Positions 23,961 through 42,050 of a stretch of DNA of 58,191 nucleotides are shown in pieces (the stretch's first letter is position 1; each line of letters begins with the position of its first letter). A program made the translations under genes and the position numbers. The notes beneath the pieces are model-generated. The model was given only the letters and a program-made list of their open reading frames with translations. It did not search any database and was not told where the DNA came from. Origin of the DNA: Dyella sp. BiH032 (GTDB taxonomy: Bacteria; Pseudomonadota; Gammaproteobacteria; Xanthomonadales; Rhodanobacteraceae); the NCBI RefSeq assembly GCF_031954525.1, contig NZ_CP134869.1:1-58191 (forward strand), written 5' to 3'.

Positions 23961-24001
23961 TGCTCACTCTCTCGATAGCGCCGCACTCCCGCGACCTGAG
24001 A

Positions 24002-24030
24002 ATTATCGCAATGACAGGATATGTAGTCAA
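24002..24030 (-). promoter_or_regulatory. Promoter with shared operator, methyltransferase operon
   Basis: -35 TTGACT (24025-24030), 17-base spacer with ACATATCCTGTCAT, -10 GATAAT (24002-24007). A leader like that of incC follows, with a small hairpin GTCGC...GCGGC before TCGAGAGAG. A KorB-like box lies 26 bp upstream. Confidence 0.8.
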
Positions 24031-24055
24031 CACTTTTAGCAAGACTTTCTGCTTG

Positions 24056-28829: not shown

Positions 28830-28923
28830 GCTCTTTCTCTAGCCCCTGACAATCCTCGAGGCGCAGGCCGGTTGACGGCTCAACCGATGAGCAAATTATA
28901 CATATCCTGTCATAGTTCCGCAA
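28830..28923 (-). promoter_or_regulatory. Shared-operator promoter and conserved leader, antitoxin-fic operon
   Basis: -35 TTGCGG (28918-28923), 17-base spacer with ATGACAGGATATG, -10 TATAAT (28895-28900). The leader hairpin reads GGTTGA/TCAACC (28870-28885), followed by the conserved block GCGCCTCGAGGATTGTCAGG. This copy differs most in its stem from the others, yet pairing is kept. Confidence 0.8.
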
Positions 28924-28936
28924 GCGATCAGGTTCG

Positions 28937-28951
28937 TTTTCGCGGCGAAAA
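28937..28951. promoter_or_regulatory. KorB-like box TTTTCGCGGCGAAAA
   Basis: Perfect box 13 bp upstream of the antitoxin-fic promoter -35. Confidence 0.75.
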
Positions 28952-28958
28952 CTGCCCC

Positions 28959-29270
28959 TTAACTCCGTCGCTCAACCCGAGCCAGCGCCAAAGCATCGCT
29001 CAGGTCAATCACATTCCATTCGTACTGCATGCCCGACTGCTCCGGCCAAGTTTCGGCTCCTGCGGCGCCCAACAAGATAAACATGCTGGGAGGTCCGTAG
29101 AGACGGCCGCGCAACTTTGGCGACGGGTCATCACGAAATGGCCCTGAATGACATTCGATATCGCTCAACTCGGCAGGCTCACCCGCCTCCGTGATACATA
29201 CGGGCGTCGTAGGTGCAACGCCTTGTTTTAGCAGCGCACCGAGAACGTCATGCAAACCCTGCAAGGTCAT
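28959..29270 (-). CDS. Hypothetical protein
   Basis: 103 residues from the ATG at 29270 (an upstream frame extension overlaps the next gene and is rejected). It reads as a small soluble domain: a helix LQGLHDVLGALLKQGVAPTT, strands around VCITEAGEPAELSDIECHSG, and a C-terminal VIDLSDALALARVE. It lies after the membrane-protein gene at 29285. Function unknown. Confidence 0.6.
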   Translation of the reverse strand: MTLQGLHDVLGALLKQGVAPTTPVCITEAGEPAELSDIECHSGPFRDDPSPKLRGRLYGPPSMFILLGAAGAETWPEQSGMQYEWNVIDLSDALALARVERRS

Positions 29271-29284
29271 GGCGTCGATTCTCC

Positions 29285-29647
29285 CTAGACCTTGGCAGGC
29301 CGGCCGCTCATGGGGCGAGACGCGCGTCTGCGGGTCAGGAGCTCCGCGGCGGTAGAAGCCCCGGCCAGCGCCACCACAAAACCACCTAGCCACACCAAAC
29401 CGCAAAGGACGAACACGGTGATCCAATGGAGGTCTGAGCCATGCTCTGGAATCCAACGGTTGAGGGCGTCCCATAGCGGCGAAATGGTGAAAGACCAGCC
29501 GGGCACGAAAGACAGCATGCCGGCGGCGATGCCAATCACCATCGGCTTATATCCTTCCTCGCCCCTGGCCTCACGGACACCGCTGATTGCGCACAGCGCA
29601 AGACCGGCAACGGCAAGCACAACAAACCAAGCTGTTTCCAACACCAT
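29285..29647 (-). CDS. Small polytopic membrane protein
   Basis: 120 residues with AAGGAG seven bases before the ATG. Three hydrophobic stretches (about 5-22, 35-52, 75-100) are visible, followed by a basic tail (LLTRRRASRPMSGRPAKV). It sits in an operon with the tandem-HTH protein. No family recognised. Confidence 0.7.
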   Translation of the reverse strand: MVLETAWFVVLAVAGLALCAISGVREARGEEGYKPMVIGIAAGMLSFVPGWSFTISPLWDALNRWIPEHGSDLHWITVFVLCGLVWLGGFVVALAGASTAAELLTRRRASRPMSGRPAKV

Positions 29648-29658
29648 TACATCGCTCC

Positions 29659-30105
29659 TTATGTCTTGTCCCTGGTGAGGACGTGCAAGAGTTCCCAAAA
29701 GGCTAGGTGCATCGGGCGCCCGCCCGTTCCCTCGGTTTCCCAGCGCTGCCAGCCGCTTTCCGTGACCATCAGGAGGGCCGCCGCCTCTTTGCGGGTGAGC
29801 CCCAAACTCTCGCGTTTGGCGAGGATGGTCGCGGGTGCCGGCTTGGGAAGATCCACGGGCGCCACGTAGTCGGGGCGCACCTTGAGTTTGAACAGCTTGA
29901 AAAAAGCCGGGTGCATGCGATTGCCGCCGTTCGCCTGGCCTTGCTCCCACTTCTGCCAGGTGATGAGGGGCGAGTACACCAACGCCGCGGCGGCGGTTTG
30001 CGATAGATCCGCGTCGATGCGGGCCGCCTTAATGGCAGCAGGATCGGGCGTCGCAGCGTCGTCATCCGCCTTCTTCTTCCTCGAGCGGTTCGGGTGGTTG
30101 ACCAT
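29659..30105 (-). CDS. Tandem helix-turn-helix regulator
   Basis: 148 residues. Two copies of the same domain lie in tandem: LSQTAAAALVYSPLITWQKW followed by GQANGGNRMHPAFFKLFKL, and LTRKEAAALLMVTESGWQRW followed by GTGGRPMHLAFWELLHVL. Each is an XRE-like helix-turn-helix with a conserved W-x-x-W/E pattern. Two fused binding domains would suit a pseudo-symmetrical operator such as ACA-N5-TGT in the shared promoters, but that link is only a hypothesis. It lies after the LPD29-like gene. Confidence 0.75.
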   Translation of the reverse strand: MVNHPNRSRKKKADDDAATPDPAAIKAARIDADLSQTAAAALVYSPLITWQKWEQGQANGGNRMHPAFFKLFKLKVRPDYVAPVDLPKPAPATILAKRESLGLTRKEAAALLMVTESGWQRWETEGTGGRPMHLAFWELLHVLTRDKT

Positions 30106-30173
30106 TACTCTTGTTCCATAGGAGGACACGGCGGGTGTGCCGCGCCTCCATTGTATGTTGCTCCTGGGCTGCA

Positions 30174-30809
30174 TTAGCTCTCCCGCTTCGCGTGGACATG
30201 GACGTAATGCGTGGACCCAAAGCAGTACAGCCAGGGGGTTTCACGGTAAGTCTTGCAGTCGGTCATTCCGTCGAAATCAGTGCCGATGTACTTGTTCGCG
30301 ATCGCCTCAGCCGCGGCCAGGTCGCCCCCCTTGTCCACCTCCACCGTGATTGAGTTGCCCATCGAAAAGCGGCTCATACGCACAGATGCCTTGATCTTCG
30401 CGAGCTTGAGCTCGGTGCGAAGGTTCTTCGCCGCCGTGCGGACGCAATACTTATCCGGCGCCGCTTCAAGGTGCTTGTTAGCCGCCAAGAGATCCGCGCA
30501 TGCCTGCTGGAAAGCGGCCTTGCGTGCATCCTCCGCCGAGTGCTTATCGGCGAGCACGCGCTCAGCCTTAGCAATGAGACCGGCAATGAGCTCCGGCTCC
30601 ACAACGATCGGGAGAATGGTCATCGGGCGCAGGCCCGTGAAGCTGCCGGGGTTCACGTAGGACCGCGAGCCGTCTTCCCACACTACGGTATGCGCCGTGT
30701 GGGCAACTTCGACCACCGTGCCCAACTTGCTTGCCATCTGTGCATGGCCCGGATGCTTCACGCGGCGGCCAACGACAAGCTGAGAGACCGGAAGGGACGA
30801 AATGGTCAT
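30174..30809 (-). CDS. LPD29-like protein
   Basis: 211 residues. The C-terminal half (IKASVRMSRFSMGNSITVEV ... IGTDFDGMTDCKTYRE) resembles LPD29, a domain common in large polyvalent proteins and antirestriction genes of mobile elements. The N-terminal ~60 residues look like a small beta barrel (VGRRVKHPGHAQMASKLGTV). It is the first gene after a shared-operator promoter and conserved leader. Function unknown. An antidefence role is suggested by context. Confidence 0.7.
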   Translation of the reverse strand: MTISSLPVSQLVVGRRVKHPGHAQMASKLGTVVEVAHTAHTVVWEDGSRSYVNPGSFTGLRPMTILPIVVEPELIAGLIAKAERVLADKHSAEDARKAAFQQACADLLAANKHLEAAPDKYCVRTAAKNLRTELKLAKIKASVRMSRFSMGNSITVEVDKGGDLAAAEAIANKYIGTDFDGMTDCKTYRETPWLYCFGSTHYVHVHAKRES

Positions 30810-30902
30810 TGTGTTTCCTGGCCCCTGACAATCCCCGAGGCGCGGGCGTGGCTGAGTGCTCAGCCGATGGGACTATTATACATATCCTGTCATGCCTGGC
30901 AA
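30810..30902 (-). promoter_or_regulatory. Shared-operator promoter and conserved leader, LPD29 operon
   Basis: -35 TTGCCA (30897-30902), 16-base spacer with ATGACAGGATATG, -10 TATAAT (30875-30880). Leader hairpin GGCTGA/TCAGCC (30850-30865), then GCGCCTCGGGGATTGTCAGG ending about 12 bases before the ATG. Confidence 0.82.
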
Positions 30903-30905
30903 CAC

Positions 30906-30920
30906 TTTTCGCCGCGAAAA
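30906..30920. promoter_or_regulatory. KorB-like box TTTTCGCCGCGAAAA
   Basis: Perfect box only 3 bases from the -35 of the LPD29 promoter, close enough for direct repression. Confidence 0.78.
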
Positions 30921-30921
30921 C

Positions 30922-31773
30922 TCACTTGCGCTTGGGTGTCGCCTTTCGCTTGCTCGAGCTCTTGCTCGTGGGCGAAGCCCGCCGAACACGGTTCTGCCTC
31001 TCAAGCTCCTTCACCCGGCCAACCAGCTCTGAGCGCCTTTCCTCTGCGGTCTGCAATCGGTCCCGCACTCGCGCCAATTCGCCGGCATGCTTTTCAGCCG
31101 CCCTTGCTGCGGCATCCTCGAGTCGCTTGACGCTGCGAGCACTGTCCTTGGCCGACTGACGCTGTGCGTCCACCTCGCGCAATAAGCGCTGCTGCTCTGC
31201 ATCGAACCACTGCCGATCCCCCTCACGCTCCGCGCGTGTCCGCGAGAGCTCGGCCTCGAGGGCTTTGCGATGCGCAGCGATCGTGCCGGCCTCCATCAAC
31301 GCAGCATCGCGCTCGCCCGTCACCTGCTGTAGCCGTTGCTCGGCATCGATCCTGGCGCGATCGGTGAGCTCTAAGCGTCCCCGGAGCTCAGCCACTTCGA
31401 GCGCGCGTGCTTGGCTGGTCTTCTCGAGCTCCTGGCGATCAGCCTCGAGAAGCAGCCGGGCACCCTCGATCGAGGACCGTTCGGCGGCCAGCTCGTCCAC
31501 CACCCCGGCCCGCGCATGCGTGAGCGCCACGGTCCACAGGTCTTTCACCATTTCACCCAGCGGTGCTGGCAGGGGAGGGCGTTGCTCGAGCGCGAGGAAA
31601 CGCTCGCCCAGCGCCTCACGCCAGGCGTTGAGCTCCCGAACGATCGTGTTCGGACTTCCGCCGCCTAGTCGCGCCCGCACCGCCTCGACGGTCGGATTCT
31701 TGCCCGCGGCCAAGATGGCATCGGCCGCCTCTCGCACTGCTGAGGGATTCGCGATCACGTTCAACTGCCGCAT
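30922..31773 (-). CDS. Second KfrA-family protein
   Basis: 283 residues. The N-terminal ~50 residues form the KfrA DNA-binding domain (AVREAADAILAAGKNPTVEA ... GGGSPNTIVRELNAW). A very long coiled coil rich in Arg/Glu/Leu follows, then a Lys/Arg/Ser tail (TSKSSSKRKATPKRK). It is divergent from the recombinase gene and shares with it an intergenic region holding a perfect inverted repeat. The stop abuts a KorB-like box. KfrA proteins act in plasmid stability. Confidence 0.88.
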   Translation of the reverse strand: MRQLNVIANPSAVREAADAILAAGKNPTVEAVRARLGGGSPNTIVRELNAWREALGERFLALEQRPPLPAPLGEMVKDLWTVALTHARAGVVDELAAERSSIEGARLLLEADRQELEKTSQARALEVAELRGRLELTDRARIDAEQRLQQVTGERDAALMEAGTIAAHRKALEAELSRTRAEREGDRQWFDAEQQRLLREVDAQRQSAKDSARSVKRLEDAAARAAEKHAGELARVRDRLQTAEERRSELVGRVKELERQNRVRRASPTSKSSSKRKATPKRK

Positions 31774-31814
31774 AAAGGCGCCTCGATTTCGGTAGGCCGT
31801 TTGAGCGCTTCAAG

Positions 31815-31839
31815 CTACGATAACCGGGGATTATCGTAG
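31815..31839. promoter_or_regulatory. Inverted repeat CTACGATAA...TTATCGTAG
   Basis: Perfect 9-bp arms around a 7-base centre, between the divergent kfrA-like and recombinase genes. A second pair ATAGTA/TACTAT lies at 31856-31876. One could be the regulator's operator and the other a recombination site. Confidence 0.6.
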
Positions 31840-31888
31840 GCTGCTGCCGCGATCAATAGTATTTGATAGCTACTATGGCATAACCACT

Positions 31889-32962
31889 ATGAGTACGTTG
31901 GCACCGATTAGATTGCCCGCGAGCGTGGATGCGGATACGGCCGCCTGGCTGGGAGAGCTCGCGCGGCAGGGAATGCCGGCGAACACGCTCACGGCGACCC
32001 ACGCCGCCGCGCGCTATTGGCGCGCGTGGCATGCCGCGCGCTTTGGTTCACCATTGGATCTAACGGCAGGGATCGCGGTAGACGTGGCTTTGACCTTCGT
32101 GGCCGATCACGGCGCCGTAGAAACGCCCACAGGCGCGGCTAGCGCCCTTCCGCCCTCAGTGGATGCTCTTTTGGTCGCGCAGGGCGCCAAGCGCCGGCCA
32201 GGGCCGCCCGCGTACCGCACGTGGCATCAGCGACTATCGCTTGTGTCTTCTGCGCTCGCAGCCCTGGGGTTGCCGAACGGCTGCGCCGCGCCCTCGGTGC
32301 TCGAGCTCGTAAGCAGGGCGAAACGGCCTGCCGCGACTCTTGGCCTCCTAGGACGGCGGCGCCCGGTGATCTTGCGCGACGCCCTGACGGCCATGCTCGC
32401 AACGTGCGACGACGGGTTAGCCGGCGTGCGCGATCGCGCCCTACTGCTGTTTGCCTTCGCATCGGGTGGCCGGCGTCGATCGGAAATTGCGGCGGCCAGG
32501 CTCGAGGATCTTCGCCAGCTCGAGCATGAGGGCGAGGTGGTCTACCTGTTCGGCATGGCGGGCGCCAAACGCCAGGAGCCCGGCCAAGTTCGCCACAAAC
32601 CGCTCCGAGGATCTGCCGCAGCGGCGCTGCGCGCCTGGTTGCGTGTGCTCGAGGCGCGAGGCCTTGCTCGAGGGCCGCTATTTCGCGCCGTAAAGGGTGC
32701 GACGTGGATAGGGCAGGGGCGCCTATCAGGCCATGCCGTCAACGCGATCGTGAAGCGGCGCGCGGAACTCGCAGGGTTGCCGGGGAACCTAACTGCCCAT
32801 GGCCTGCGGGGTGGCTTTCTCACTCAGGCCTATAGAGATGGCGTGGATCTGTTCGACGCGATGGCCCTTTCGGATCATCGCGACGTCAAAACAGTTCGTG
32901 AGCACTACCTTGAGGATTTCGAGGCGCTACGCAACCCTGCTGGATTGCTTCTCGATCGTTAG
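31889..32962 (+). CDS. Tyrosine recombinase
   Basis: 357 residues. The catalytic residues are recognisable: Arg I in ASGGRRRSEI (about 195), Lys in the FGMAGAKRQEPG strand region, HGLR in box II (about 304), the second His in SDHRDV, and Tyr in VREHYLED (about 338). It could resolve plasmid multimers or act as an integrase. There is no associated cargo border or attachment repeat that I can identify, so multimer resolution is the simpler reading. It is one of two plus-strand genes. Confidence 0.88.
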   Translation: MSTLAPIRLPASVDADTAAWLGELARQGMPANTLTATHAAARYWRAWHAARFGSPLDLTAGIAVDVALTFVADHGAVETPTGAASALPPSVDALLVAQGAKRRPGPPAYRTWHQRLSLVSSALAALGLPNGCAAPSVLELVSRAKRPAATLGLLGRRRPVILRDALTAMLATCDDGLAGVRDRALLLFAFASGGRRRSEIAAARLEDLRQLEHEGEVVYLFGMAGAKRQEPGQVRHKPLRGSAAAALRAWLRVLEARGLARGPLFRAVKGATWIGQGRLSGHAVNAIVKRRAELAGLPGNLTAHGLRGGFLTQAYRDGVDLFDAMALSDHRDVKTVREHYLEDFEALRNPAGLLLDR

Positions 32963-32966
32963 GTCA

Positions 32967-33329
32967 TCACGCATGGCTGTGCTCACGCTTTTTGCGGTTT
33001 AGCTCTGCGAGCTCGGCATCAAGTTCGGCAATTCGCGCATCAATCTCCTCGATCCTGGCTCTGTTAATTTCGCCGAGGAAGCAACCGCCAAGGCCAATCA
33101 AGAACCACGCCAGAAGAAACGGGAAGAGGATGACGAAAGAGCCTTTCCATCCTGCTGGCACGCTATGCGTGACGCCCAGCACGACGAACGGCAATGCCAG
33201 GGAGCCCAGCCCAGCGAATAGGCACGCGATGGCAAGCGCGCGCCCTTGGCGCGAAGACACGCGGACCTGAACGCGCTTCCAAAAGCTCAGTTTGTCGGAC
33301 AGGGAACGCAGGCGCGCGACAGCTTTCAT
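32967..33329 (-). CDS. Membrane protein with C-terminal coiled coil
   Basis: 120 residues: a basic amphipathic start, two membrane segments (about 31-52 and 63-85), then a charged coiled coil (IEEIDARIAELDAELAELNR). Its ATG overlaps the stop of the upstream gene (ATGA). It ends 4 bases from the convergent recombinase stop. Function unknown. Confidence 0.7.
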   Translation of the reverse strand: MKAVARLRSLSDKLSFWKRVQVRVSSRQGRALAIACLFAGLGSLALPFVVLGVTHSVPAGWKGSFVILFPFLLAWFLIGLGGCFLGEINRARIEEIDARIAELDAELAELNRKKREHSHA

Positions 33330-33544
33330 TCTGCGTATGCCTCCACGTCGAGGCCGAGCTCGGCCTCGGTGAGAAGTCCGTCGATCTGCTCGCTTCCGAA
33401 GCGCTCGAGTGCTTCGGCCGGAATGCCAATAGCCTCGGCGACGTCTGCGCAAGCGTCCTCGTTCTGTGTCGCTTCGTGGGCCACCTTAACCAGCATGCAG
33501 AGGTGGGAGTCGGGCAGGGTATTCAACATGTCACGGATCGACAC
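33326..33544 (-). CDS. Small acidic protein
   Basis: 72 residues, strongly acidic and helical (AHEATQNEDACADVAEAIGI), ending TEAELGLDVEAYAE. Coupled to the next gene by a 4-base overlap. No family recognised. Confidence 0.6.
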   Translation of the reverse strand: MSIRDMLNTLPDSHLCMLVKVAHEATQNEDACADVAEAIGIPAEALERFGSEQIDGLLTEAELGLDVEAYAE

Positions 33545-33595
33545 TGGAAATCTCCGAATGGTTGTTGGCTTGTGATGAATTGTCGGCGATCAAGC

Positions 33596-34195
33596 TCAGG
33601 CCTTGAGCGGCGGGTGCGCCTGGCCGCGCTCACGGTTGAACGCGCGCATGTCGTCCCACAGGGACGCTAGGACGCGAGCCGCATGCGTCCACGGCGCCGC
33701 CCGGCCGTTGCAGGACGAAACGCCATTGGGGCCGATGACGCCGGCAGTGTCCTCGAGGGCGAATGGGCCGAAAGTGTGCTCGTGCATCACGCCGGCGTCG
33801 GTGTGATTCTCTTTAAGGAGCCAGGTCGTCGGGGCGTCGGTGGTGTCAGCCGTGAGCTGGCACGTCACGTAACGATCAGGACCAAGATCCGTGTTGCTGA
33901 GCAAGTAGTCCACCACGTCATCAAAAACCGCATCCATGAGCGCGGCAAAGAAAACGTAATAGCGCGAGCTGCATGCGGGGCAGCGTCCGACCATGAGCGT
34001 AGGGAACCAAGCGGTCGGCGTCTTCTGTTCTTCGGTAAGGTGCTCGAACAGCGCGCCTACGCTGTCTCCGTCATCGAGCCAGTAACGGCGGCCAGGCACC
34101 TCAGCGCCGTCAGACTTGGCGATGAATACAACCTCTTTGCAGGCCGGGCATTGAAGCTGTACCGGCGTGGTGATGCTCTGCGTTGCGAATTGCAT
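33596..34195 (-). CDS. Hypothetical protein with two CPAC zinc-ribbon halves
   Basis: 199 residues. QCPACKEVVFIA near the N-terminus (about 15-26) and RCPACSSRYYVFF (about 71-83) probably form one zinc ribbon. The rest is a mixed alpha/beta domain. It lies in the accessory operon between small membrane proteins. Function unknown. Confidence 0.65.
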   Translation of the reverse strand: MQFATQSITTPVQLQCPACKEVVFIAKSDGAEVPGRRYWLDDGDSVGALFEHLTEEQKTPTAWFPTLMVGRCPACSSRYYVFFAALMDAVFDDVVDYLLSNTDLGPDRYVTCQLTADTTDAPTTWLLKENHTDAGVMHEHTFGPFALEDTAGVIGPNGVSSCNGRAAPWTHAARVLASLWDDMRAFNRERGQAHPPLKA

Positions 34196-34207
34196 TTGCT
34201 TCTCCGA

Positions 34208-34582
34208 TCAAGCCGTGAGATTGGTCGGCACCGGCCGCCCGTAGTCATCGAGCTCGGTGTACCTGGCGCCATAGGCGTGGGCGATCCGCTTGGCCGCGTC
34301 CTTCGGGACGTGGACGGCGATCGTTGCTGGCCCGAGGCGGCGCCGACTCACCACGAAATGCCCGCCCATCGGGTTCATGTGCAAGCGCATGCGATGGCGC
34401 GGAATGTTGTGAGCCGCGAAAATCACTGCGCCGCTGTAGAGCCTGCCCTTGAAGCACAGGAGGGACGTGTTGCCGTTGATCGTCTTGAGGACGTAGTGGT
34501 TCGAGCCGTCATGCCATGGGATTTCAGGGGCTTCGCGCAGCGCGACTGCGCGAAGCAAAGAGCGAAAGGGCGCCAGGATCAT
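34208..34582 (-). CDS. Hypothetical protein
   Basis: 124 residues from the ATG at 34582, which overlaps the upstream stop (ATGA). The beta-rich middle part (NHYVLKTINGNTSLLCFKGR ... GHFVVSRRRLGPATIAVHVP) and a late helix (KDAAKRIAHAYGARYTEL) suggest a single small domain. No family recognised. Confidence 0.62.
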   Translation of the reverse strand: MILAPFRSLLRAVALREAPEIPWHDGSNHYVLKTINGNTSLLCFKGRLYSGAVIFAAHNIPRHRMRLHMNPMGGHFVVSRRRLGPATIAVHVPKDAAKRIAHAYGARYTELDDYGRPVPTNLTA

Positions 34583-35055
34583 TCGGCCAGCGCCTCGAGG
34601 CGGGCCAGCGCGTCGGCGCGCGCTTTCCGCGGCCCTTCCTTGTGCATGTAGACGCGGCACGCGCACAGGTCACGCTCACGAATGACGTCGCCGGCATCGA
34701 GCCATTCCTTGACACGGGCGCCGATCGCCGGGAACTCCTGAGCCAGTTCAGCGAGCTCTTTGAGGCTGCGATTGTTTAACGGGTCGAAATCATCGGTTTC
34801 GCGCATGGGTTCCCATGCGTGCATCTTGGCGCCGGTCCAGCAAGCCAGGCCGAAGACTGCGGACGCAGCGGCGACCACGCCACCGAAGAAAATCCAGCCC
34901 GCGACTGCCGCGGCGGCACAAATTACGGCGCAGACCTTGAGCGCCGCCACTTGGGCCGCGTTGTTCGGCGGCGCCAGGTTGAATTGACGAAAGCGGGCGC
35001 GTGCTTCTTCGACTTCGGCCGGCGACATGGGTCGGTGATCGAACGGGATAGGCAT
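34579..35055 (-). CDS. Two-pass membrane protein, paralogue of 35088-35576
   Basis: 158 residues. Two membrane segments (about 36-75) are followed by a cytoplasmic domain with DPLNNRSLKELAELAQEFP, IRERDLCACRVYMHKEG and a C-terminal DALARLEALAE. The same order and motif (LxxRDLxAC) recur in the next gene upstream, so the pair arose by duplication. Function unknown. Confidence 0.72.
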   Translation of the reverse strand: MPIPFDHRPMSPAEVEEARARFRQFNLAPPNNAAQVAALKVCAVICAAAAVAGWIFFGGVVAAASAVFGLACWTGAKMHAWEPMRETDDFDPLNNRSLKELAELAQEFPAIGARVKEWLDAGDVIRERDLCACRVYMHKEGPRKARADALARLEALAE

Positions 35056-35087
35056 GGGGATAGCTCCGTGGTTTAGGGTTGGGGCCG

Positions 35088-35576: not shown

Positions 35577-35632
35577 GTGGTTTCCTGCCTGCTGGGGTGG
35601 GGCGGGGCGGCATTGCTGCCGCCCCTGGGTTG

Positions 35633-36064
35633 TTAGTCGATCGCCGTGCGGATCTGCTTCCATTCCGCATGCTCGCGGGCGTACTCCAAGAGATATCGGT
35701 AGAGCTGGCAAAAACTGTCCTGCCGCGTGGTGTTGGCGAGCTGGTTCAGCATGTAGAGGGTGGCGATGATGCCGGCCGCAGTGCCGCCGACGTGCACGGT
35801 GCATTGCGCGCCCTGGCAAACAAGGTCGTAGGTATCGATGCCGCTGGGCGCCATGAAAAAGCCGCCGTTGCTGAGCTCGAAATAGTTCCAGTAGGCGCCG
35901 CGGTAGTTCGGGCAGAGCTTGCCCATCCAGCCATAAACAAGACCTTCCGCGCGGAGCATGTAACGCATGCCGAAATACTTGGGGAGCATCTCTAGGCGCT
36001 TCTTCTCCCCCTCAACCAGCGTTGCGGTGATCGAGTCGAACTGTGCGGCGGCTTGGTTGTGCAT
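35633..36064 (-). CDS. klcA: ArdB/KlcA-family antirestriction protein
   Basis: 143 residues matching ArdB/KlcA, which relieves type I restriction in cells receiving a plasmid. Diagnostic stretches are LPKYFGMRYMLRAEGLVYGW, YFELSNGGFFMAP and GTAAGIIATLYMLNQLA, ending in the YRYLLEYAREHAEWKQI helix. The gene is directly under the shared-operator promoter and conserved leader, with its ATG at 36064. Confidence 0.93.
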   Translation of the reverse strand: MHNQAAAQFDSITATLVEGEKKRLEMLPKYFGMRYMLRAEGLVYGWMGKLCPNYRGAYWNYFELSNGGFFMAPSGIDTYDLVCQGAQCTVHVGGTAAGIIATLYMLNQLANTTRQDSFCQLYRYLLEYAREHAEWKQIRTAID

Positions 36065-36157
36065 GGTGTTTCCTGGCCCCTGACGATCCCCGAGGCGCGG
36101 GCGTGGCTGCAAACTCAGCCGACATGGCTATTATACATATCCTGTCACGCTTGGCAA
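36065..36157 (-). promoter_or_regulatory. Shared-operator promoter and conserved leader, klcA operon
   Basis: -35 TTGCCA (36152-36157), 16-base spacer with GTGACAGGATATG, -10 TATAAT (36130-36135). Leader hairpin GGCTG/CAGCC (36105-36120, six-base loop), then GCGCCTCGGGGATCGTCAGG before the ATG. Confidence 0.82.
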
Positions 36158-36189
36158 CACTTTGGATTATCTTTTTATAATCAAGCGCG

Positions 36190-36432
36190 CTACAGGTTGA
36201 GGAAGTCCTCGACATAGTAGGCCTGGCTCTGGCCTTCCTCGTCGTAGTACGGACACGGCCGGTAGTACCAAGGCGGCGGCCCGCCCATTTCATGCCGGCA
36301 TGCCTGCTCATCGATGACGTTTTGAAAGTCCGCATAGTGCGACGCGAAGTCACGGAAAGGATCACCAAACGCCTGAATGTGCTGCATGAATTTCTCGAGC
36401 CCGCTGGGCGAAAGTTTCCGCTCAATGGTCAT
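36190..36432 (-). CDS. Small hypothetical protein
   Basis: 80 residues, acidic and Tyr/Pro-rich in the second half (PWYYRPCPYYDEEGQSQAYY), with a helical first half (SGLEKFMQHIQAFGDPFRDF). Its start overlaps the stop of the methyltransferase gene by 1 base. No family recognised. Confidence 0.6.
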   Translation of the reverse strand: MTIERKLSPSGLEKFMQHIQAFGDPFRDFASHYADFQNVIDEQACRHEMGGPPPWYYRPCPYYDEEGQSQAYYVEDFLNL

Positions 36433-38039
36433 CACCTGTTATCTCCGTCTGCTTCGCTCCGTCGAGTCGCGACGTATATAACGACCGCCGCGCCCGTACC
36501 TTGAAACTCCCCCTGATAAACCTGGCTCCATTCGGATGCCCAGCCGGGGAGAAGATCCACGCCGCGCAGTGACGCCGGCACCACCGCACACAACCGCCCG
36601 CCAGGCTTCACCAAGCCCGCCGCGGCCAACACGTGATCCCTTGCCCGCCCTTCGCTAAACGGGGGGTTCATGAGCACACGCGAGAACGTTGGCCCACGCC
36701 CCGCAGACCACGCCAGGAAATCCGCATTCACCACCGCAAAACCCTTGCCTTTGAGCACTGCGCAGTGGAGCCCGGACACCTCAACGCATACGGTGCGGTC
36801 CTTCGGTAGCAGATCCGCGATCCCGCCTTGGCCTGCGCTCGGCTCGAGGCAACTGCACGTGTCATCGAGCTCGGCGCGGCGCACTAGCTCCTTAGCGATC
36901 AACCGCGGTGTCGGGTAGAACTGGTGTGACTGGCGCTCGGGTAGGCACCCGGTCAGGAGCACATGCTTGATAGCCTCGCTTGCGTCATAGTCGAACCTGG
37001 CCGTCCAGTCATTCACGTACACGCCTCCCAACGCTTCCAGCACCTCGCGCAACTGCTGCGCGCTTGCTTTGCTTTCTTTGCACTCGAGGTAGGGCAAGGT
37101 GAGTTCATGGCCGTCGCCTGTTTTGCCCTTGCATCCGTCGAGCAAGCGAAGCACCGCGAACGGGAGTGGGGTTTGTATCAGGTCGTATTTCTTGGATGGC
37201 TTCTTAGGCGCCGTGCGCTGGCCGCGCGGGATCGCCTGGGGGTACAGGTGCGCAAGCACAGCATTGAGGCGCCATGCCATGTCGGGATGCACTTCGATAT
37301 GCGCCGTGCCGACTTTGTAGACGCGGATGCGCAGCGCGCCGCCGTCGATGGGGTGCCACTTCCCCGGCACCTCCTGACACAGCTTTAGAACGCAGTTGGA
37401 TGCGTCGTGGCGCGGCTCATCTCGACCCATGAACTTCGCAATGACTTTGCGAAGATCGTTGATATACCCGGCCTTGGTCGTGTTCAAAAAGCCGTAGTCG
37501 TCAATGACGCCGGCAACGATCATGCGCGTGTTGAAGCCCGAGCGCAGATTGGTGACGTGGGTGCGCGATAGCGTGCGGAAAATGCCGTCTACGCGCTCAG
37601 CGAAGAATTGCGCCCTCGAGGAAAGGAGCGAGGCGATCGTAGGGCGGACAGCATCGAGGTTGTAATCGGGCGTCGTATTCGTGCGAATGGCCTTGTCCCA
37701 TTCATCGCGACGTGACTGCGGCATGCAGTCGTAGACGTCGGTGAGGGCGAGCGTGCGTTGCCAATACTCGCTATTGAGCGCGGCGATCGCCTTTTTCTCA
37801 CTAAAAAGCCTGTCCACGTCGGGACGGCCGTGAGAAAAATCGTAGGCCTTGAGGAAGAACGACACCGCGCCCGATTCACGGTGGATCTCGCGCGCAAGGT
37901 GCTGGATGCGATGGCGAGTGTAGGCGTAGGCCTCAAACAACCCGCCCAAAACGCCGCGGTCGGAAAACAGCCGGTCAGAGGCTTCGTTGTCGAGCAATGC
38001 CGACAAGGGGCCGGCAGGCAGAGAGAGTGCTGTCGTCAT
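36432..38039 (-). CDS. DUF4942-type protein with adenine methyltransferase domain
   Basis: 535 residues. The first ~350 residues are DUF4942-like (helical start, then YGFLNTTKAGYINDLRKVIA and a KYDL...PLP region). The C-terminal part is a class I methyltransferase with the SAM motif LEPSAGQGG (about 396) and catalytic NPPF (about 457), the N6-adenine type. No restriction partner is present. It is probably an orphan antirestriction modifier. It is directly under a shared-operator promoter and leader, with the ATG at 38039. Confidence 0.88.
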   Translation of the reverse strand: MTTALSLPAGPLSALLDNEASDRLFSDRGVLGGLFEAYAYTRHRIQHLAREIHRESGAVSFFLKAYDFSHGRPDVDRLFSEKKAIAALNSEYWQRTLALTDVYDCMPQSRRDEWDKAIRTNTTPDYNLDAVRPTIASLLSSRAQFFAERVDGIFRTLSRTHVTNLRSGFNTRMIVAGVIDDYGFLNTTKAGYINDLRKVIAKFMGRDEPRHDASNCVLKLCQEVPGKWHPIDGGALRIRVYKVGTAHIEVHPDMAWRLNAVLAHLYPQAIPRGQRTAPKKPSKKYDLIQTPLPFAVLRLLDGCKGKTGDGHELTLPYLECKESKASAQQLREVLEALGGVYVNDWTARFDYDASEAIKHVLLTGCLPERQSHQFYPTPRLIAKELVRRAELDDTCSCLEPSAGQGGIADLLPKDRTVCVEVSGLHCAVLKGKGFAVVNADFLAWSAGRGPTFSRVLMNPPFSEGRARDHVLAAAGLVKPGGRLCAVVPASLRGVDLLPGWASEWSQVYQGEFQGTGAAVVIYVATRRSEADGDNR

Positions 38040-38131
38040 GTCTTGGCTTAGCCCCTGATTATCTCCGAGGCGCGAGCGGCCGAGAGGTCGGCCCATTAAC
38101 TAATGGTATACATATCCTGTCATCTTCGCAA
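38040..38131 (-). promoter_or_regulatory. Shared-operator promoter and conserved leader, DUF4942 gene
   Basis: The ATGACAGGATATG element precedes TATACC (38105-38110); a -35 such as TTGCGA lies about 15 bases upstream, so this is the weakest of the set. Leader hairpin GGCCGA/TCGGCC (38078-38093), then GCGCCTCGGAGATAATCAGG. Both stem sides differ from other copies with pairing kept. Confidence 0.75.
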
Positions 38132-38135
38132 GCAA

Positions 38136-38163
38136 TAAAAAACCCCTCGGGGGGAGGGGTTTC
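38136..38163 (-). terminator. Rho-independent terminator after the H-NS-like gene
   Basis: AAACCCCTC/GAGGGGTTT stem followed by T-rich sequence on the minus strand. It separates the H-NS-like operon from the DUF4942 promoter. Confidence 0.8.
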
Positions 38164-38226
38164 CTTTGAGGCTGCGTTGGGGTGATTAACGCGATCACTC
38201 AAAGCTCGCGCGCCAAGCCTGGTTTG

Positions 38227-38622
38227 CTACTGGATCAGCATATCGTCTTCGGTAACGCCGCGATCGAGCGCGTCACGGTACCACGCGGGCTGTTTACCGC
38301 GGCCGGTCCATGTCTCCTTGGGATTGGCCGGATTGCGGTACTTCTGAGCGACCGACGTGCCTTTAGAGGGATGCGACCGACGCCCGGACGAACGCGCGCC
38401 CGCCATTACTTCGTCTAGCGTGAATCCGTGCTTGGCAAGTAGGGCGTTAATTTCTTCGCGCACCGCCGCGCGGGCCTGCTCTCTCAGTTCTTGCGCTCGC
38501 TTCTCGGCATCCCCGATTACATCGAGGACTTCCGTATAGCTCAGCTTCGAGAGGTCAACTTTTCCCATGAAATCACGGCCGGTAAGTGGATTTGCGAACG
38601 CAATATAATCGAAAACTCTCAT
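38227..38622 (-). CDS. H-NS-family nucleoid protein
   Basis: Up to 131 residues (ATG 38622); the ATG at 38568 (113 residues, MGKVDLSKLSYTEVLDVIG) is an equally good start. A coiled-coil dimer region (about 25-60) is followed by the H-NS DNA-binding motif KYRNPANPKETWTGRGKQP and a WYRDAL end. Plasmid H-NS proteins silence AT-rich foreign genes and reduce the cost of the plasmid. It begins 5 bases after the Mrr-like gene. Confidence 0.9.
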   Translation of the reverse strand: MRVFDYIAFANPLTGRDFMGKVDLSKLSYTEVLDVIGDAEKRAQELREQARAAVREEINALLAKHGFTLDEVMAGARSSGRRSHPSKGTSVAQKYRNPANPKETWTGRGKQPAWYRDALDRGVTEDDMLIQ

Positions 38623-38627
38623 GATAA

Positions 38628-39275
38628 CTATTGTGCCCTTCCATGAATGCGGTCGATTAGATGGGATAATCGTTTGCCGTCAATAAGTTCGATTGGTTTG
38701 CCATCGGCAAATGCCCTGGCCTCCCTGGTGAAGCCGCCCGAAGTCACGACGGCGATCGCGTGGGCTTGGTGATGCACCATGAGGCCAAACATTTCCCGCA
38801 CCTGGGGCGCTCCAACACTCTTAGCGCGCCAGTGCTTGCATTGAACGAGGGTGAGCTCCCCACGCTTGCGGAGCCGAAGATCCACGCCGCCATCGGCGCC
38901 GCCGAGGCCGGTTTCTTCAACGCGATAGCCCCACTGCCGGAAAACCTCGCCCACAAGCCGCTCGAAGTCCTCCCAACCGAGACTTTGCACGGTCGCAAGG
39001 CTCGACTGCTTGGCAAGGAGCCGGCGCCGCCGCCGTTCTTGCCAGTAGCTCTGGGCGCCGCGCAGCCAGCAATAGGCGCACGCCAGCGGCCCGGCCAGGC
39101 CCAACGCTGCGGACACCACGGGTGAGCCGTAGGGATTGACGTGGACCGCCCTGGGAAGCGCAACAGCGAGCACGAGGTACAGGGCGGCGCCGATAACAAA
39201 GTACCAGTGCCACTCGAGCGCCTGGCCGCGCGAGGCGCGTTGACGGGTAGGGCGCCTCGGCATGCGTGCCCTCAC
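38628..39275 (-). CDS. Membrane-anchored Mrr-like restriction nuclease
   Basis: 215 residues. Two hydrophobic segments (about 24-42 and 50-70) are followed by a basic stretch (WQERRRRRLLAK) and a PD-(D/E)xK nuclease domain: GWEDFERLVGEVF, GGADGGVDLRLR (Asp 132), VQCKHW (Gln145-Lys147). Mrr-type enzymes cut modified or foreign DNA. It starts at a GTG overlapping the upstream stop (GTGA). On a plasmid it may act against competitors or phage rather than itself. Substrate unknown. Confidence 0.85.
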   Translation of the reverse strand: MRARMPRRPTRQRASRGQALEWHWYFVIGAALYLVLAVALPRAVHVNPYGSPVVSAALGLAGPLACAYCWLRGAQSYWQERRRRRLLAKQSSLATVQSLGWEDFERLVGEVFRQWGYRVEETGLGGADGGVDLRLRKRGELTLVQCKHWRAKSVGAPQVREMFGLMVHHQAHAIAVVTSGGFTREARAFADGKPIELIDGKRLSHLIDRIHGRAQ

Positions 39276-39439
39276 CGGGACGTGCGGCGGTTAGCAAACC
39301 ATGCTGCCGCGACCACCGCGGCGCAGATGGCAAGCGTCGCGAGGACGCTATGGCCTCGAACAAGCGCGCCGATCGCGCGGTATACCGCCGATCGCGCGGC
39401 GGCGTTGATGAGCATGTCTACAAAGGAATGGCCGCGCAT
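39272..39439 (-). CDS. 55-residue single-pass membrane protein
   Basis: A short frame from ATG 39439 to the stop at 39272, starting MRGHSFVDMLINAAARSAVY and holding one membrane segment (about 31-48, LATLAICAAVVAAAWF) before a basic end. Its TGA overlaps the GTG start of the Mrr-like gene, so the two are probably coupled. AAGGA lies 12 bases upstream. Confidence 0.5.
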   Translation of the reverse strand: MRGHSFVDMLINAAARSAVYRAIGALVRGHSVLATLAICAAVVAAAWFANRRTSR

Positions 39440-39454
39440 GCGTGGCTTCGGTCC

Positions 39455-39826
39455 TTACGGGCGTGCAAGGGTCATGGCTGCGTCCTCTCCGATGAGGCGC
39501 GCGTAGCCGGTCGTAGGTGGTTCGCGCACCTCGGGCATCGGCTTGCGAGATTGCCGCAGTGGACGATGGCGAACTCGGTGCCGACCACCCAGCACGACGG
39601 AGTAATGTGCCGTGTTGGTGATCCCGCCGACCGGCCATTGCCAACGGGTCGTGTAGGCACGGCTCGTGTGGAGCATCCGCTCGAGAATATCGACGCGGCT
39701 GCGCGGGAAGGGGAAGCCCATTTCCTCCCAATAGCTCGTGAAGACAGTGCGACCACAGCCGCGGTAGCGCATCGGCTCAGGCTTCGCCTGAACCATCAAA
39801 ATCTCGTCGCGATACAGCATGTGCAT
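39455..39826 (-). CDS. Hypothetical protein
   Basis: 123 residues from ATG 39826 (AAGGA four bases upstream). The first half is protein-like (MRYRGCGRTVFTSYWEEMGF, then VDILERMLHTSRAYTTRWQW). The second half is Arg/Pro-rich (GGRHRVRHRPLRQSRKPMPE). It lies between the 39838 and 39272 genes in one transcript. No family recognised. Confidence 0.55.
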   Translation of the reverse strand: MHMLYRDEILMVQAKPEPMRYRGCGRTVFTSYWEEMGFPFPRSRVDILERMLHTSRAYTTRWQWPVGGITNTAHYSVVLGGRHRVRHRPLRQSRKPMPEVREPPTTGYARLIGEDAAMTLARP

Positions 39827-39837
39827 GCTTCCTTGCG

Positions 39838-40242
39838 TTACCTGGCGGACCAATCGGGAATAGCGGAGATGAGTTTGGTGTCCTGCACCCAGCCCAATGC
39901 AGCGCCACACTTGAGCTGCGCATCTACGATCAGGTCGTGGATCATGCGCATCTGTATGGGCTTGTTCTCGTACCAACCAAGCAGCTTATGCAGCTCGTGA
40001 ATCGTGTACGAAATGAAAAGCGCGGCATTCACCGCACCCACAAACCCCTGGGCGGGATCGGTGGGGTTCCAGCCCGATAGGTCGCGAAGCCTGCTGATGC
40101 ACTGACCGGCTTGGATCAGTTTGTCCTCAAGTGCATTCAGCTCAGCACGGAGCTGATCCCAATCGCCAGCGCCGTTGCCGTTAAGCGCGCGAATGGTTTC
40201 GATGCTGCCAAAAGCTTTCGGTGTAGTGGTGGCGTTGCTCAT
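39838..40242 (-). CDS. Hypothetical helical protein
   Basis: 134 residues from ATG 40242. It appears all-helical (DWDQLRAELNALEDKLIQAG, then FVGAVNAALFISYTIHELHK). It lies between the outer-membrane protein gene and 39455. No family recognised. Confidence 0.6.
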   Translation of the reverse strand: MSNATTTPKAFGSIETIRALNGNGAGDWDQLRAELNALEDKLIQAGQCISRLRDLSGWNPTDPAQGFVGAVNAALFISYTIHELHKLLGWYENKPIQMRMIHDLIVDAQLKCGAALGWVQDTKLISAIPDWSAR

Positions 40243-40314
40243 GCTTCGTAGATCCTTCTTGCAAGTGCGAGGCAAACTGAAAGGGCGCGAAGCAAATGCC
40301 TCGCGCCCGTGGTG

Positions 40315-40971
40315 TTAGAAACGGTAGCTGACGCCAAACGCCAGAACGGGATAACCGCCGAGCACCTTGACGTCGTGATTGATCGAGTCCTCCTGCGCCT
40401 TCACGTCGCCGGGCGGCACCTGGGCGGCCAGGCCCGACGAAAGCGTGATGCGCGTGGTCGGGTTGCCAAACTGCAAGCCGATATCGCCGTACACACCCCA
40501 GCCCGCATGCGACGGCGCGTGGCCCCAACCGATGCCGAGATAGGGCACGTTCTTCGGGAACTTGATATTGACCTTGGCCGACTCGCCGGCAAGCGGATAC
40601 TTGACGTGGTTGATCGTGACGGTGCCGGTACCGCCATCGGCTTCGCCGTCGAAATGGTTGTTCGTGTTCACGTAGCCGGCGGTGACGCGAAAAGTGCCGG
40701 CAAACGGGAACCAATCGCCGTAGACACCGACGTTCTGCAAGTGCAGTCGGCCCTTGTACTGCGAGCCGCTGTTGTCGTAGGTGCCGCTGTAGCCGAGGCC
40801 GGCGTATTCGCCGCGCACGGCGAAACGATCATTGATCCCGTAGCTGTAGCCGCCGCCGACGCCAGTCGTGCCCACGCCGAGATAGACCTCATTGCTCGCG
40901 GCCGTGGCAGCGGAAGCAGCGGTGAGTGCAACGATCGAGGCCAGGGCGAGGGTGAGCTTGTTGTTCTTCAT
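40315..40971 (-). CDS. Small outer-membrane beta-barrel protein
   Basis: 218 residues from ATG 40971. A signal peptide (KLTLALASIVALTAASAATA) precedes a chain of short amphipathic strands (VYLGVGTTGVGGGYSYGIN ... FGVSYRF) ending in Phe, the outer-membrane barrel signature. Among other options, a surface exclusion or phage-receptor-masking role is possible. I do not recognise a specific family. It is preceded by ssb. Confidence 0.8.
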   Translation of the reverse strand: MKNNKLTLALASIVALTAASAATAASNEVYLGVGTTGVGGGYSYGINDRFAVRGEYAGLGYSGTYDNSGSQYKGRLHLQNVGVYGDWFPFAGTFRVTAGYVNTNNHFDGEADGGTGTVTINHVKYPLAGESAKVNIKFPKNVPYLGIGWGHAPSHAGWGVYGDIGLQFGNPTTRITLSSGLAAQVPPGDVKAQEDSINHDVKVLGGYPVLAFGVSYRF

Positions 40972-41044
40972 GAGTGCTGATGTGTCCTTGGGATTTTGAA
41001 GTCGGACATGTCTCAATGTCTGTTCGCAATGCGACATGCCCCAT

Positions 41045-41059
41045 TTTTCGCCGCGAAAA
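41045..41059. promoter_or_regulatory. KorB-like box TTTTCGCCGCGAAAA
   Basis: Perfect box between ssb and the outer-membrane protein gene. Confidence 0.75.
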
Positions 41060-41079
41060 CTGCGGCCCTTCCGCTGCGC

Positions 41080-41505
41080 TTACAGCGGCAAATCGTCGTC
41101 GTCGTCCTCGAAGCCGCTGGGCGGCGGCACGTCGTCGTCATAGCGACCATGCGGCGCAGACGCGGCCTGACTGCCGGTGCCGATGAGCTGGAACTCGTGC
41201 GCAATGACTTCGGTCACGTAGCGCTCAACGCCATTCTTGTCGGTGTACTTGCGCGTGCGGTTCTTGCCGGTGATGAGGATTTCGCGCCCGGTCTTCACGA
41301 ACTCGACGGCCACCTCAGCGTGGCGTCCGTAGAGTTGAACGCGGTGCCATTCGGCATGGCTCTTGAGCTCGCCGGTTTGTCGATCCTTCCAACGCTCATT
41401 GGTCGCAAGGTCGAGCTGGCAGGCGGCCTTACCGCTATTCGTGTGACGCAACTTCGGCGCCTGACCGGCGTTGCCGATCAGCGTGACTCGATTGAGGGAT
41501 GCCAT
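41080..41505 (-). CDS. ssb: Single-stranded DNA-binding protein
   Basis: 141 residues. The OB fold begins MASLNRVTLIGNAGQAPKLR and includes WHRVQLYGRHAEVAVEFV and a KYTDKNGVERYVTEV strand. The acidic tip ends DDDDDLPL instead of the chromosomal DDIPF, so partner contacts may differ. Plasmid SSBs coat incoming single strands in the recipient and are typical leading-region genes. Confidence 0.95.
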   Translation of the reverse strand: MASLNRVTLIGNAGQAPKLRHTNSGKAACQLDLATNERWKDRQTGELKSHAEWHRVQLYGRHAEVAVEFVKTGREILITGKNRTRKYTDKNGVERYVTEVIAHEFQLIGTGSQAASAPHGRYDDDVPPPSGFEDDDDDLPL

Positions 41506-41618
41506 TCGGTACTCCTGGGGGATGCTGCTTTGTGAGAGGTGAGGACACTCGCCACATGTCCGTAATGTCGGCCGGGTACGGGAAAACCTGAGCCCGGCCA
41601 GGCGATAAGCGATTCGGC

Positions 41619-41957
41619 TTAGGCGCGCAGCACGGTCAGATGACCGAGCAATTCGACACGCTGCGCAGCGAGCTTTTCGACGGCTTCGCCAAGAACCGTG
41701 AAGCGGACGCCGGCCAGAATCAGGCGTCCCGCGGTGTCCTGGGCCACGTCTTCATCGGGGCATGCGGTGAGCAATTCGGCGGCCTGGGCGACCAGGGCGA
41801 TATCGTCGGCAGTGGTGCGCGGGTAGCTGACAGACAGCGACGCGGGCTCGGGGATGCTTGCAATGCGATCAGCGATTTTCGCGACGGCGGCGGCGAGCTG
41901 CGGCCGGGAGCCAGTCAGCGCGGCAGCGGCGTTGCGGAGAGTATCGACGCAAGACAT
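41619..41957 (-). CDS. Hypothetical protein at the head of the ssb operon
   Basis: 112 residues, Ala-rich and helical (AAALTGSRPQLAAAVAKIAD, LVAQAAELLTACPDEDVAQD), with no membrane segment. The ATG at 41957 follows the shared-operator promoter and conserved leader. It lies 113 bases upstream of ssb, in the same direction. No family recognised. Confidence 0.65.
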   Translation of the reverse strand: MSCVDTLRNAAAALTGSRPQLAAAVAKIADRIASIPEPASLSVSYPRTTADDIALVAQAAELLTACPDEDVAQDTAGRLILAGVRFTVLGEAVEKLAAQRVELLGHLTVLRA

Positions 41958-42050
41958 GGTGATCCTTAGCCCCTGACGATCCCCGAGGCGCGGGCGTGGC
42001 CGAGTGGTCAGCCTGTCATGTCATTATACATATGCTGTCATTATATGCAA
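41958..42050 (-). promoter_or_regulatory. Shared-operator promoter and conserved leader, 41957/ssb operon
   Basis: -35 TTGCAT (42045-42050), 16-base spacer with ATGACAGCATATG (one base differs), -10 TATAAT (42023-42028). Leader hairpin GGCTGA/TCGGCC (41998-42013, one wobble), then GCGCCTCGGGGATCGTCAGG. Confidence 0.82.

Follow-up and report, generated by a model that had tools for sequence, protein, structure and literature searches.

A compact leader RNA, probably a pseudoknot, ahead of genes of a Dyella plasmid and of many uncultured phages

What is the leader that recurs between promoter and start codon in five operons of a 58,191-nucleotide (nt) stretch of DNA from Dyella sp. BiH032? The stretch, called the window throughout, is contig C3 (1-58191), one of three contigs in the genome, and by its gene content it looks like a conjugative plasmid. 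An earlier note on this DNA took the leader to be a covarying hairpin followed by a conserved block. The comparisons reported here describe it instead as a compact RNA structure that marks phage and plasmid genes and for which no Rfam family was found.

Read 5' to 3', the element would begin with a hairpin, S0, often near the 5' end and variable in sequence. A few nt later would come stem S1, of 2-6 base pairs (bp), closing the loop GCGCCUCG, and then a spacer. At the end a GGGGC would pair with the loop bases GCCUC (S2) to give an H-type pseudoknot, directly after which stand the Shine-Dalgarno sequence and the start codon. Comparison of copies establishes S1, S2, S0 in some copies, the place before start codons and the use before many unrelated genes. 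The five window copies (c1 to c5) and the genes behind them are listed here, with the scores given to the cores by model R1.

28842..28867, minus strand: c1 core, S1 CCT/AGG, loop GCGCCTCG, S2 GCCTC/GGGGC (47.7 bits)
28870..28885, minus strand: c1 S0 hairpin, GGTTGA/TCAACC
28449..28829, minus strand: c1 gene, VbhA-type antitoxin, then a Fic/DOC gene at 27196-28446
30821..30846, minus strand: c2 core, S1 CCC/GGG (44.4 bits)
30850..30865, minus strand: c2 S0 hairpin, GGCTGA/TCAGCC
30174..30809, minus strand: c2 first gene, 211 amino acids, LPD29 domain (27.2 bits, cut-off 27)
29659..30105, minus strand: c2 operon second gene, 148-amino-acid helix-turn-helix (HTH) protein, N-terminus MVNHPNRSRKKK
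36076..36101, minus strand: c3 core, S1 CCC/GGG (41.0 bits)
36105..36120, minus strand: c3 S0 hairpin, GGCTG/CAGCC
35633..36064, minus strand: c3 gene, antirestriction protein (PF03230)
38051..38076, minus strand: c4 core, S1 CTC/GAG (39.1 bits)
38078..38093, minus strand: c4 S0 hairpin, GGCCGA/TCGGCC
36432..38039, minus strand: c4 gene, DUF4942 / phage-type DNA methyltransferase, 535 amino acids
41969..41994, minus strand: c5 core, S1 CCC/GGG (40.6 bits)
41998..42013, minus strand: c5 S0 hairpin, GGCTGA/TCGGCC with one G-U pair
41619..41957, minus strand: c5 gene, 112 amino acids, no family, then an SSB gene at 41080-41505

The block GCGCCTCGGGGATNGTCAGG occurs five times in the window at three or fewer mismatches, always on the minus strand (28845, 30824, 36079, 38054 and 41972), while none of 100 shuffles of the window reached five copies (mean 0.01). 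The five leaders can be aligned over the full stretch from promoter to start codon, and the GGGGC of the block ends 11-12 nt 5' of the start codon. Model R1, among whose building sequences were these five copies, gives them its only strong matches in the window (39.1-47.7 bits, the next being 10.6). That five operons share a leader and that its conserved block lies shortly before the start codon was confirmed as the earlier note had proposed, and the genes behind it include an antirestriction gene (after c3) and an antitoxin gene (after c1).

The hairpin stems it had placed at 28870, 30850, 36105, 38078 and 41998 were also found, wobble included: 29 of 30 cells pair, with two of the six pairs changed on both sides and one G-U in addition. 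As a covarying structure the hairpin therefore stands, but not as the main structure, for S0 is the variable outer part of the element and the conserved core is a stem-loop plus GGGGC. Among hand-listed copies outside the set of DUF6948 genes (introduced below), an S0 stem of at least 4 bp lies directly 5' of the core in 20 of 22, with a mean score of 6.95 compared to 2.42±0.61 for base-shuffled sequence.

Just 3' of S0 lies the second covarying stem, S1, closing the near-invariant 8-nt loop. In the window two of its three pairs have changed on both sides. A pattern scan of uncultured virus contigs gave 42 stretches, 17 of which are, in my judgement, 5' leaders built alike, with the block followed by a Shine-Dalgarno sequence and a start codon. 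To avoid the bias of a pattern, an alignment of ten DUF6948 proteins that follow leaders (A2) was used, and viral loci were fetched by the DUF6948 protein alone (the best 80 of 284). The leader was present in 53 of these 80 loci, in 48 distinct forms. Around the fixed loop the phage S1 arms differ between phages and match within each leader (AATTG/CAATT, TTTGT/GCAAA, GTCG/CGAC, TGGT/ACCA), and their pairing sum in the DUF6948 set is 208, as compared to 64.8±10.6 for shuffled arms, a value reached in 0 of 2000 shuffles. In alignment A3 (53 sequences) 68 S1 cells have changed on both sides (19.9±3.3 when shuffled, at most 18 with slid partners), and in A5 (71 sequences) 85 have done so (24.4±4.0 when shuffled, at most 20 when slid). 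That the leader, for its resemblance to the type I-E CRISPR repeat, might be a decoy RNA is disfavoured, because it keeps its loop constant while its stem changes.

The second helix, S2, is formed by the loop bases GCCUC, which can pair with the conserved GGGGC downstream, just 5' of the Shine-Dalgarno sequence. All S2 cells pair in A3, with one-sided changes only; in A5 98.0% pair, and a G-C is replaced by A-U in two rows. Two cellular loci with GCACCTCG and GGGGT show such an exchange of G-C for A-U as well. S2 was tested by three exact-pattern scans of the virus collection, a match being counted as leader-like if a start codon followed within 18 nt of the Shine-Dalgarno match and opened a frame of at least 50 amino acids or one running off the contig end. 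With an A in the loop and a U on the 3' side (GCACC with GGGGT) 22 of 23 virus matches were leader-like. With A and C, a mismatch (GCACC with GGGGC), this was true of one in eight, a single locus (L334) whose protein resembles the DUF6948 ones. With G and C (GCGCC with GGGGC) 80 of 85 among the matches listed were leader-like, in 80 loci; that last scan found at least 120 stretches, and its counts come from these 80 loci. A definition that also asked for 3 bp or more in S1, with a frame of 40 amino acids or longer, left 10 for A/U, 1 for A/C and 56 for G/C, the last again among the matches listed. This compensatory change lends strong support to the S2 helix.

The same scans supplied a second collection of 97 distinct leaders, in which each of the two innermost S1 positions is paired in 96 of 97 (sum 300 compared to 124.9±9.9, 0 of 2000 shuffles). 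S0 is enriched in its GC_other leaders (32 of 55, compared to 8.1 in shuffles and at most 16), and S0 may belong to copies that have their own promoter. There are thus two helices, the loop of the first pairing with bases 3' of it, and covariation for both, which is what defines an H-type pseudoknot. S1 and S2 together probably form one, with its end about 12 nt upstream of the start codon, if, as I infer, both helices form at the same time. The earlier claim of a selected RNA structure in the 5' leader has only gained, as the search for covarying homologues brought many of them, with strong covariation.

The element is rare and scattered in cellular genomes. Matches there were accepted or rejected by eye on leader layout, and 12 loci in other genomes were accepted, plus one copy on the host chromosome. 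Model R1 was run over 369 genomes of the class, 233 of the family and 398 of the phylum. In the class 32 genomes match at E<=1e-3, own included, and the accepted loci are one copy in G338 and, in the own genome, the five plasmid copies and the chromosomal one. Other weak matches for which a locus could be inspected were not accepted, and three without a locus were left out; a match in G259 was rejected as it lies inside a reading frame. Three genomes of the family match, the two besides the own lacking the leader layout. In the phylum 21 match at E<=1e-4, and nine loci in eight genomes besides the own were accepted (L261-L265, L269, L277, L278, L281). Model R2, run over the families of G731 (18 genomes), G679 (8) and G713 (199), the class of G713 (385) and the order of G338 (36), added L286 and L288 only, its matches L287 and L289-L293 lacking the layout. 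A 22-base pattern matched three of 99 relatives, own included, and an exact 19-base pattern gave 29 matches in genome contigs, none judged to have the layout. The copy in G338 (L252) sits in a probable prophage, to judge from the neighbouring frames, and repeats the order found in the plasmid: promoter, hairpin GCTCTG/CAGAGC, core, ATG. In G731 two neighbouring copies (L262 and L281) lie beside a CI-like repressor. The host chromosome copy (L251, G000:C1:2047940-2047984, minus strand) precedes a very short acidic open frame, and five genomes of the same genus gave no match at E<=1e-4.

All 29 virus records searched whole, each chosen for holding a match, gave at least one, and the contigs of L361, L391, L394 and L405 carry two or three leaders. 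In the second collection 94 of 97 distinct leaders precede a protein of at least 30 amino acids, and blastp sorts these proteins into 78 clusters. In A5 the start codon lies 6-18 nt after GGGGC in all 71 leaders and exactly 12 nt after it in 33 of them, and a Shine-Dalgarno-like 4-mer is present in 66. Cultured phages gave no relative of DUF6948 or of the gene at L261; a sensitive blastn search of them with a DUF6948 gene and its leader gave nine short matches only (E about 1-4). Plasmids hold no DUF6948 relative and none of the c5 protein. The HTH protein at L277 has relatives in 85 plasmids and one phage, with the plasmid alignments, among the matches listed, falling outside its HPNR part.

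This HPNR part is a second regularity. Many proteins behind phage leaders begin with M-x-NHPNR. Leader and HPNR-like start occur together in 52 of the 80 DUF6948 loci and are both absent from 26; one locus has the leader only and one the HPNR start only. Across the 50 exact HPNR starts each of the four codons shows synonymous variation (for Arg, CGC 16, CGA 12, CGT 9, CGG 7, AGA 4, AGG 2), so that HPNR seems to be conserved as peptide rather than as RNA. The same start is found on other proteins behind the leader (L019, L020, L026, L286). Behind two phage leaders, L025 and L032, stand frames of 12 and 16 amino acids that start with M-x-NHPNR, the L032 frame ending within its contig and the L025 frame at the contig end. 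A literature search, which most subscription papers fell outside, returned NHPNR in unrelated contexts only and did not mention DUF6948.

The leader appears in no described family that was tried. The 4227 models of Rfam match nothing in the window at gathering score; with the c2 leader up to E 10 there are three chance-level matches, none of them STAXI, and four phage and six genome loci gave three and two sub-threshold matches, none on a leader. The wider literature search, with most subscription papers outside it, found no description of it, and the earlier note's impression that it is not known from described plasmids is borne out where tested. STAXI (RF01728) is the nearest relative by theme, an RNA or DNA motif made of pseudoknots and found close to genes for SSB, antirestriction proteins and integrases. 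It occurs in Enterobacteriales as two or, more usually, three pseudoknots in tandem, many of them with UUCG loops (PMC2864571). The window leader has instead a single core, tied to the Shine-Dalgarno sequence and start codon and with the loop GCGCCUCG, and each leader gives one strong model match. RF01728 matches neither the window at gathering score nor 10 genomes; the 14 control genomes likewise gave no match, so that the genome-wide comparison had no positive control.

The conserved bases of preQ1-type riboswitches appear to differ from those of the leader, and the genes behind the leader are unrelated to one another, pointing to no metabolite pathway. The operator of gene 32 in phages T4 and RB69 is a pseudoknot. 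It is alike in being a phage mRNA structure in the translation initiation region that serves translational control (PMC535899), as preQ1 class I and other H-type riboswitches are alike in that a short H-type pseudoknot influences how accessible the Shine-Dalgarno sequence is (PMC11625349). The gene 32 operator acts on one gene, autogenously, and is read by SSB, whereas the leader precedes many unrelated genes, although an SSB gene does lie in the c5 operon. All these, like the putRNA considered below, would be analogues in form, and relatives by no test here.

Upstream of the leader lies a layer that can be separated from it. An operator-like motif, TGACAGGATATGTA, occurs in eight promoters of the window. 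Seven of these copies are exact over 13 bases (GACAGGATATGTA), and the eighth carries a mismatch. At c1 to c5 it is oriented with the gene and overlaps the promoter spacer and -10; in three others it is inverted.

28897..28912, minus strand: c1 promoter, operator-like motif TGACAGGATATGTATA
30877..30892, minus strand: c2 operator-like motif, sigma-70-like promoter TTGCCA-16-TATAAT (11/12)
36132..36147, minus strand: c3 operator-like motif, promoter TTGCCA-16-TATAAT
38107..38122, minus strand: c4 promoter, operator-like motif
42025..42040, minus strand: c5 operator-like motif TGACAGCATATGTATA
20419..20434, plus strand: inverted motif in the promoter spacer of the parA-korB-korA operon, without such a leader
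21251..21266, plus strand: inverted motif in the promoter of the open reading frame 20956-21210 (minus strand), without such a leader
24012..24027, plus strand: inverted motif in the promoter of the open reading frame 23697-23960 (minus strand), followed by a C5 DNA methylase gene, without such a leader
17923..18261, minus strand: KorA/TrfB-type repressor gene (PF16509, 8.9e-14), candidate reader of the motif

The promoter motif has eight copies, then, not five, and three of them stand without such a leader. The model search finds no leader at the inverted copies, and because three operons have the motif without it, operator and leader are separable layers. The c2 and c3 promoters match sigma-70 at 11 of 12 positions; the scan as a whole gave four matches compared to 3.0 in shuffles, little excess. 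A likeness of the operator ATATCCTGTCA to T-DNA borders and MOBP nick sites was rejected as a clue to its function, as the motif lies in promoter spacers and in both orientations. From the logic of IncP operons, a KorA-like plasmid protein probably reads TGACAGGATATGTA. The RP4 operator differs in sequence from that of the plasmid. The IncP-1 KorA/KorB regulon of RP4 offers a likeness in incC-korB-korA, klcA-type antirestriction, ssb and kfrA-type genes and in transient expression in new transconjugants, where klcA, korA/incC/korB, kle and ssb transcripts surge, which the authors credit to derepression; the available part of the paper does not mention a pseudoknot leader (PMC7314908).

What would such a leader do? 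Many unrelated genes of uncultured phages also have this element in front of them, which makes it look like a not yet described RNA control element that is common to mobile DNA. Its narrow distance to the start codon, near-invariant loop and S2, and position on the sense strand speak for an RNA whose target is the initiation of translation. The reading that I favour, with somewhat better than even confidence, is that the leader is a small cis-acting mRNA element that controls translation initiation of early (establishment) genes. From the structure I infer the regulation as follows. Plasmid transcription would start in the absence of the repressor that reads TGACAGGATATGTA, presumably KorA, for instance when the plasmid has newly arrived in a cell, and the transcript would fold at once into S0 and the pseudoknot. 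An initiating 30S subunit has a footprint of roughly -20 to +15. Because GGGGC lies within that expected footprint, the folded knot and 30S binding would be expected to compete for the leader, and translation would be gated either by the stability of the knot or by a binder of the conserved loop and S2, binding by a protein or an RNA being possible. In the plasmid the operator would then time transcription, and the leader would add a translational gate.

Several observations weigh against this reading or parts of it. S2 (GCCTC/GGGGC) is invariant across the five window copies, where it therefore offers no variation, seven S2 cells are unpaired in A5 (partly in misaligned rows), and L288 has GGGAC instead of GGGGC. 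A nested fold of the leader favours S2 without S1, so that the two stems could be alternatives rather than one knot, and the window leaders fold with ordinary energies (z -1.20 to +0.95). S1 has only 3 bp in the window, and in the second collection 22 of 55 GC_other leaders, 8 of 17 A-U leaders and 2 of 25 leaders preceding HPNR-like starts have an S1 of no more than 2 bp. S0 is near the shuffled level in the 48 DUF6948 copies (2.52, compared to 2.42 for shuffles of the other set; a stem of at least 4 bp in 23 of 48), it falls below shuffles in HPNR leaders (2 of 25, compared to 4.0), and in the A-U class (6 of 17, compared to 1.9) it only equals the shuffle maximum of 6. The leader at L269 precedes a frame of just 26 amino acids. 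A relative in Xanthomonas theicola, whose KorA is 39% identical over 80 amino acids, lacks an operator site at fewer than three mismatches. Finally, use before 78 protein clusters would suit a general element for expression or stability just as much as a gate.

That last point leads to the rival that survives best, a constitutive armour or enhancer in which the 5' hairpin and pseudoknot shield early mRNA from decay or aid the loading of ribosomes, with no switch and no ligand. Besides the many protein clusters, the place of S0 near the predicted 5' end in promoter-proximal copies and the frequent Shine-Dalgarno-like 4-mer would suit it. The near-invariant loop and S2 exceed what stability needs and suggest specific recognition, and there are phage copies without S0; I hold it possible, though doubtful. 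A bolder extension of the favoured reading is a regulon spanning mobile elements, in which phages and plasmids of Pseudomonadota would mark their early genes with a single kind of pseudoknot leader, recognised by one shared factor, and many phages would pair the leader with an M-x-NHPNR tag that recognises it, an exchangeable autoregulatory cassette on unrelated genes. This is speculative and rather improbable.

A narrower idea is that of an RNA-peptide pair, in which M-x-NHPNR-x-K would recognise the leader, its carriers controlling their own leader or the whole set. The co-occurrence of leader and HPNR in the DUF6948 set, and the synonymous codons beneath a peptide conserved as such, speak for it. 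In the second collection an HPNR-like start follows 25 of 80 distinct GC-class phage leaders, but the other 55 of the 80 (both counts among the matches listed) and all 17 A-U-class leaders precede proteins without one. In the plasmid the HTH protein at 29659-30105 (MVNHPNRSRKKK) would have to serve all five leaders. No other protein of the window was found to have a strict HPNR N-terminus, and this one, encoded in the c2 operon, is not itself preceded by a leader; a word-limited protein search gave it one other homologue at E<=1e-3. Eleven stretches of genome, each spanning 10-20 kb about a leader, were searched: three (L298, L302, L304) have a strict HPNR start and eight have none, with near variants in L300 and L303. 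In 253 kb of comparison loci there are two strict matches, of identical sequence in two records. The linkage could also stem from modular exchange of gene starts, and I consider the pair unlikely.

Two further proposals fare worse. The putRNAs, of about 70 nt with two stem-loops, follow early promoters (PMC9378689), and a put-like RNA modifying RNA polymerase so as to antiterminate early operons, as in phage HK022, would share with the leader a 5' place on transcripts of repressor-controlled elements and a two-part structure. The leader stands at a short and narrowly set distance from a start codon and occurs several times per contig, each copy ahead of its own small gene; the part of the putRNA description available contains no such loop or pseudoknot, and this explanation is very improbable. 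A single-stranded-DNA promoter of the Frpo/ssi type, raised in the earlier note and suggested by leading-region-type genes (antirestriction, SSB, methyltransferase, antitoxin) and by the shared elements that precede leading-region anti-defence genes in that system (PMC11541004), scarcely deserves belief: Frpo/ssi promoters are themselves folded DNA with -35 and -10 paired in the single strand, whereas here the structure lies downstream of an ordinary promoter whose hexamers are outside it, the plus strand around the promoter has no common fold in the five copies (z-scores -1.00, -2.55, -0.73, -0.26 and +1.03, only the second low), and the element recurs shortly before phage start codons.

The setting of the leaders is a plasmid gene set that includes trb genes, an IncP-type traG, genes for KorA, KorB and ParA and two KfrA-type genes, with a relaxase that resembles RlxS at a score below that model's cut-off. 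Further genes encode SSB, an antirestriction protein, a VbhA-Fic pair and a DUF4942 methyltransferase. A PLSDB megablast with 15 kb of the plasmid found no close plasmid relatives, a sensitive blastn search for plasmid relatives of the c2 leader gave one 27-nt match (E 0.4), and the nearest plasmid by ParA has neither operator nor leader.

Some other features of the window were seen in passing. Genes for an H-NS-like protein (38227-38568) and an Mrr-type endonuclease (38628-39260), both on the minus strand, lie upstream of the c4 operon. Beside the relaxase gene, 15042-16450 holds hairpin-rich tandem arrays (an 89-nt unit three times at 195-nt spacing, then a 97-nt unit five times at 171-172-nt spacing), with no Rfam match at gathering score, possibly a noncoding RNA or an oriT-side array. 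A different leader, with hairpin GCCGC/GCGGC, then GAGAGAG, then the start codon, is shared by the kor operon, where it lies within 20330-20460, and the 23697-23960/methylase operon, where it lies within 23930-24050. The palindrome TTTCGC[GC]GCGAAA occurs ten times, nine of them in the longer form TTTTCGCSGCGAAAA, and its copies are perhaps operators or partition sites for a KorB/ParB protein.

5687, 20498, 22650, 22696, 24057, 28938, 30907, 41046, 44894, 53431: copies of the palindrome TTTCGC[GC]GCGAAA

The leader already offers a way to search viral metagenomes for early or accessory genes, candidates for anti-defence included. The tight link of an RNA leader to an N-terminal peptide on one gene is unusual and directly testable. 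If the switch is true, it would add a layer of translational control on the genes that decide the establishment of incoming DNA.

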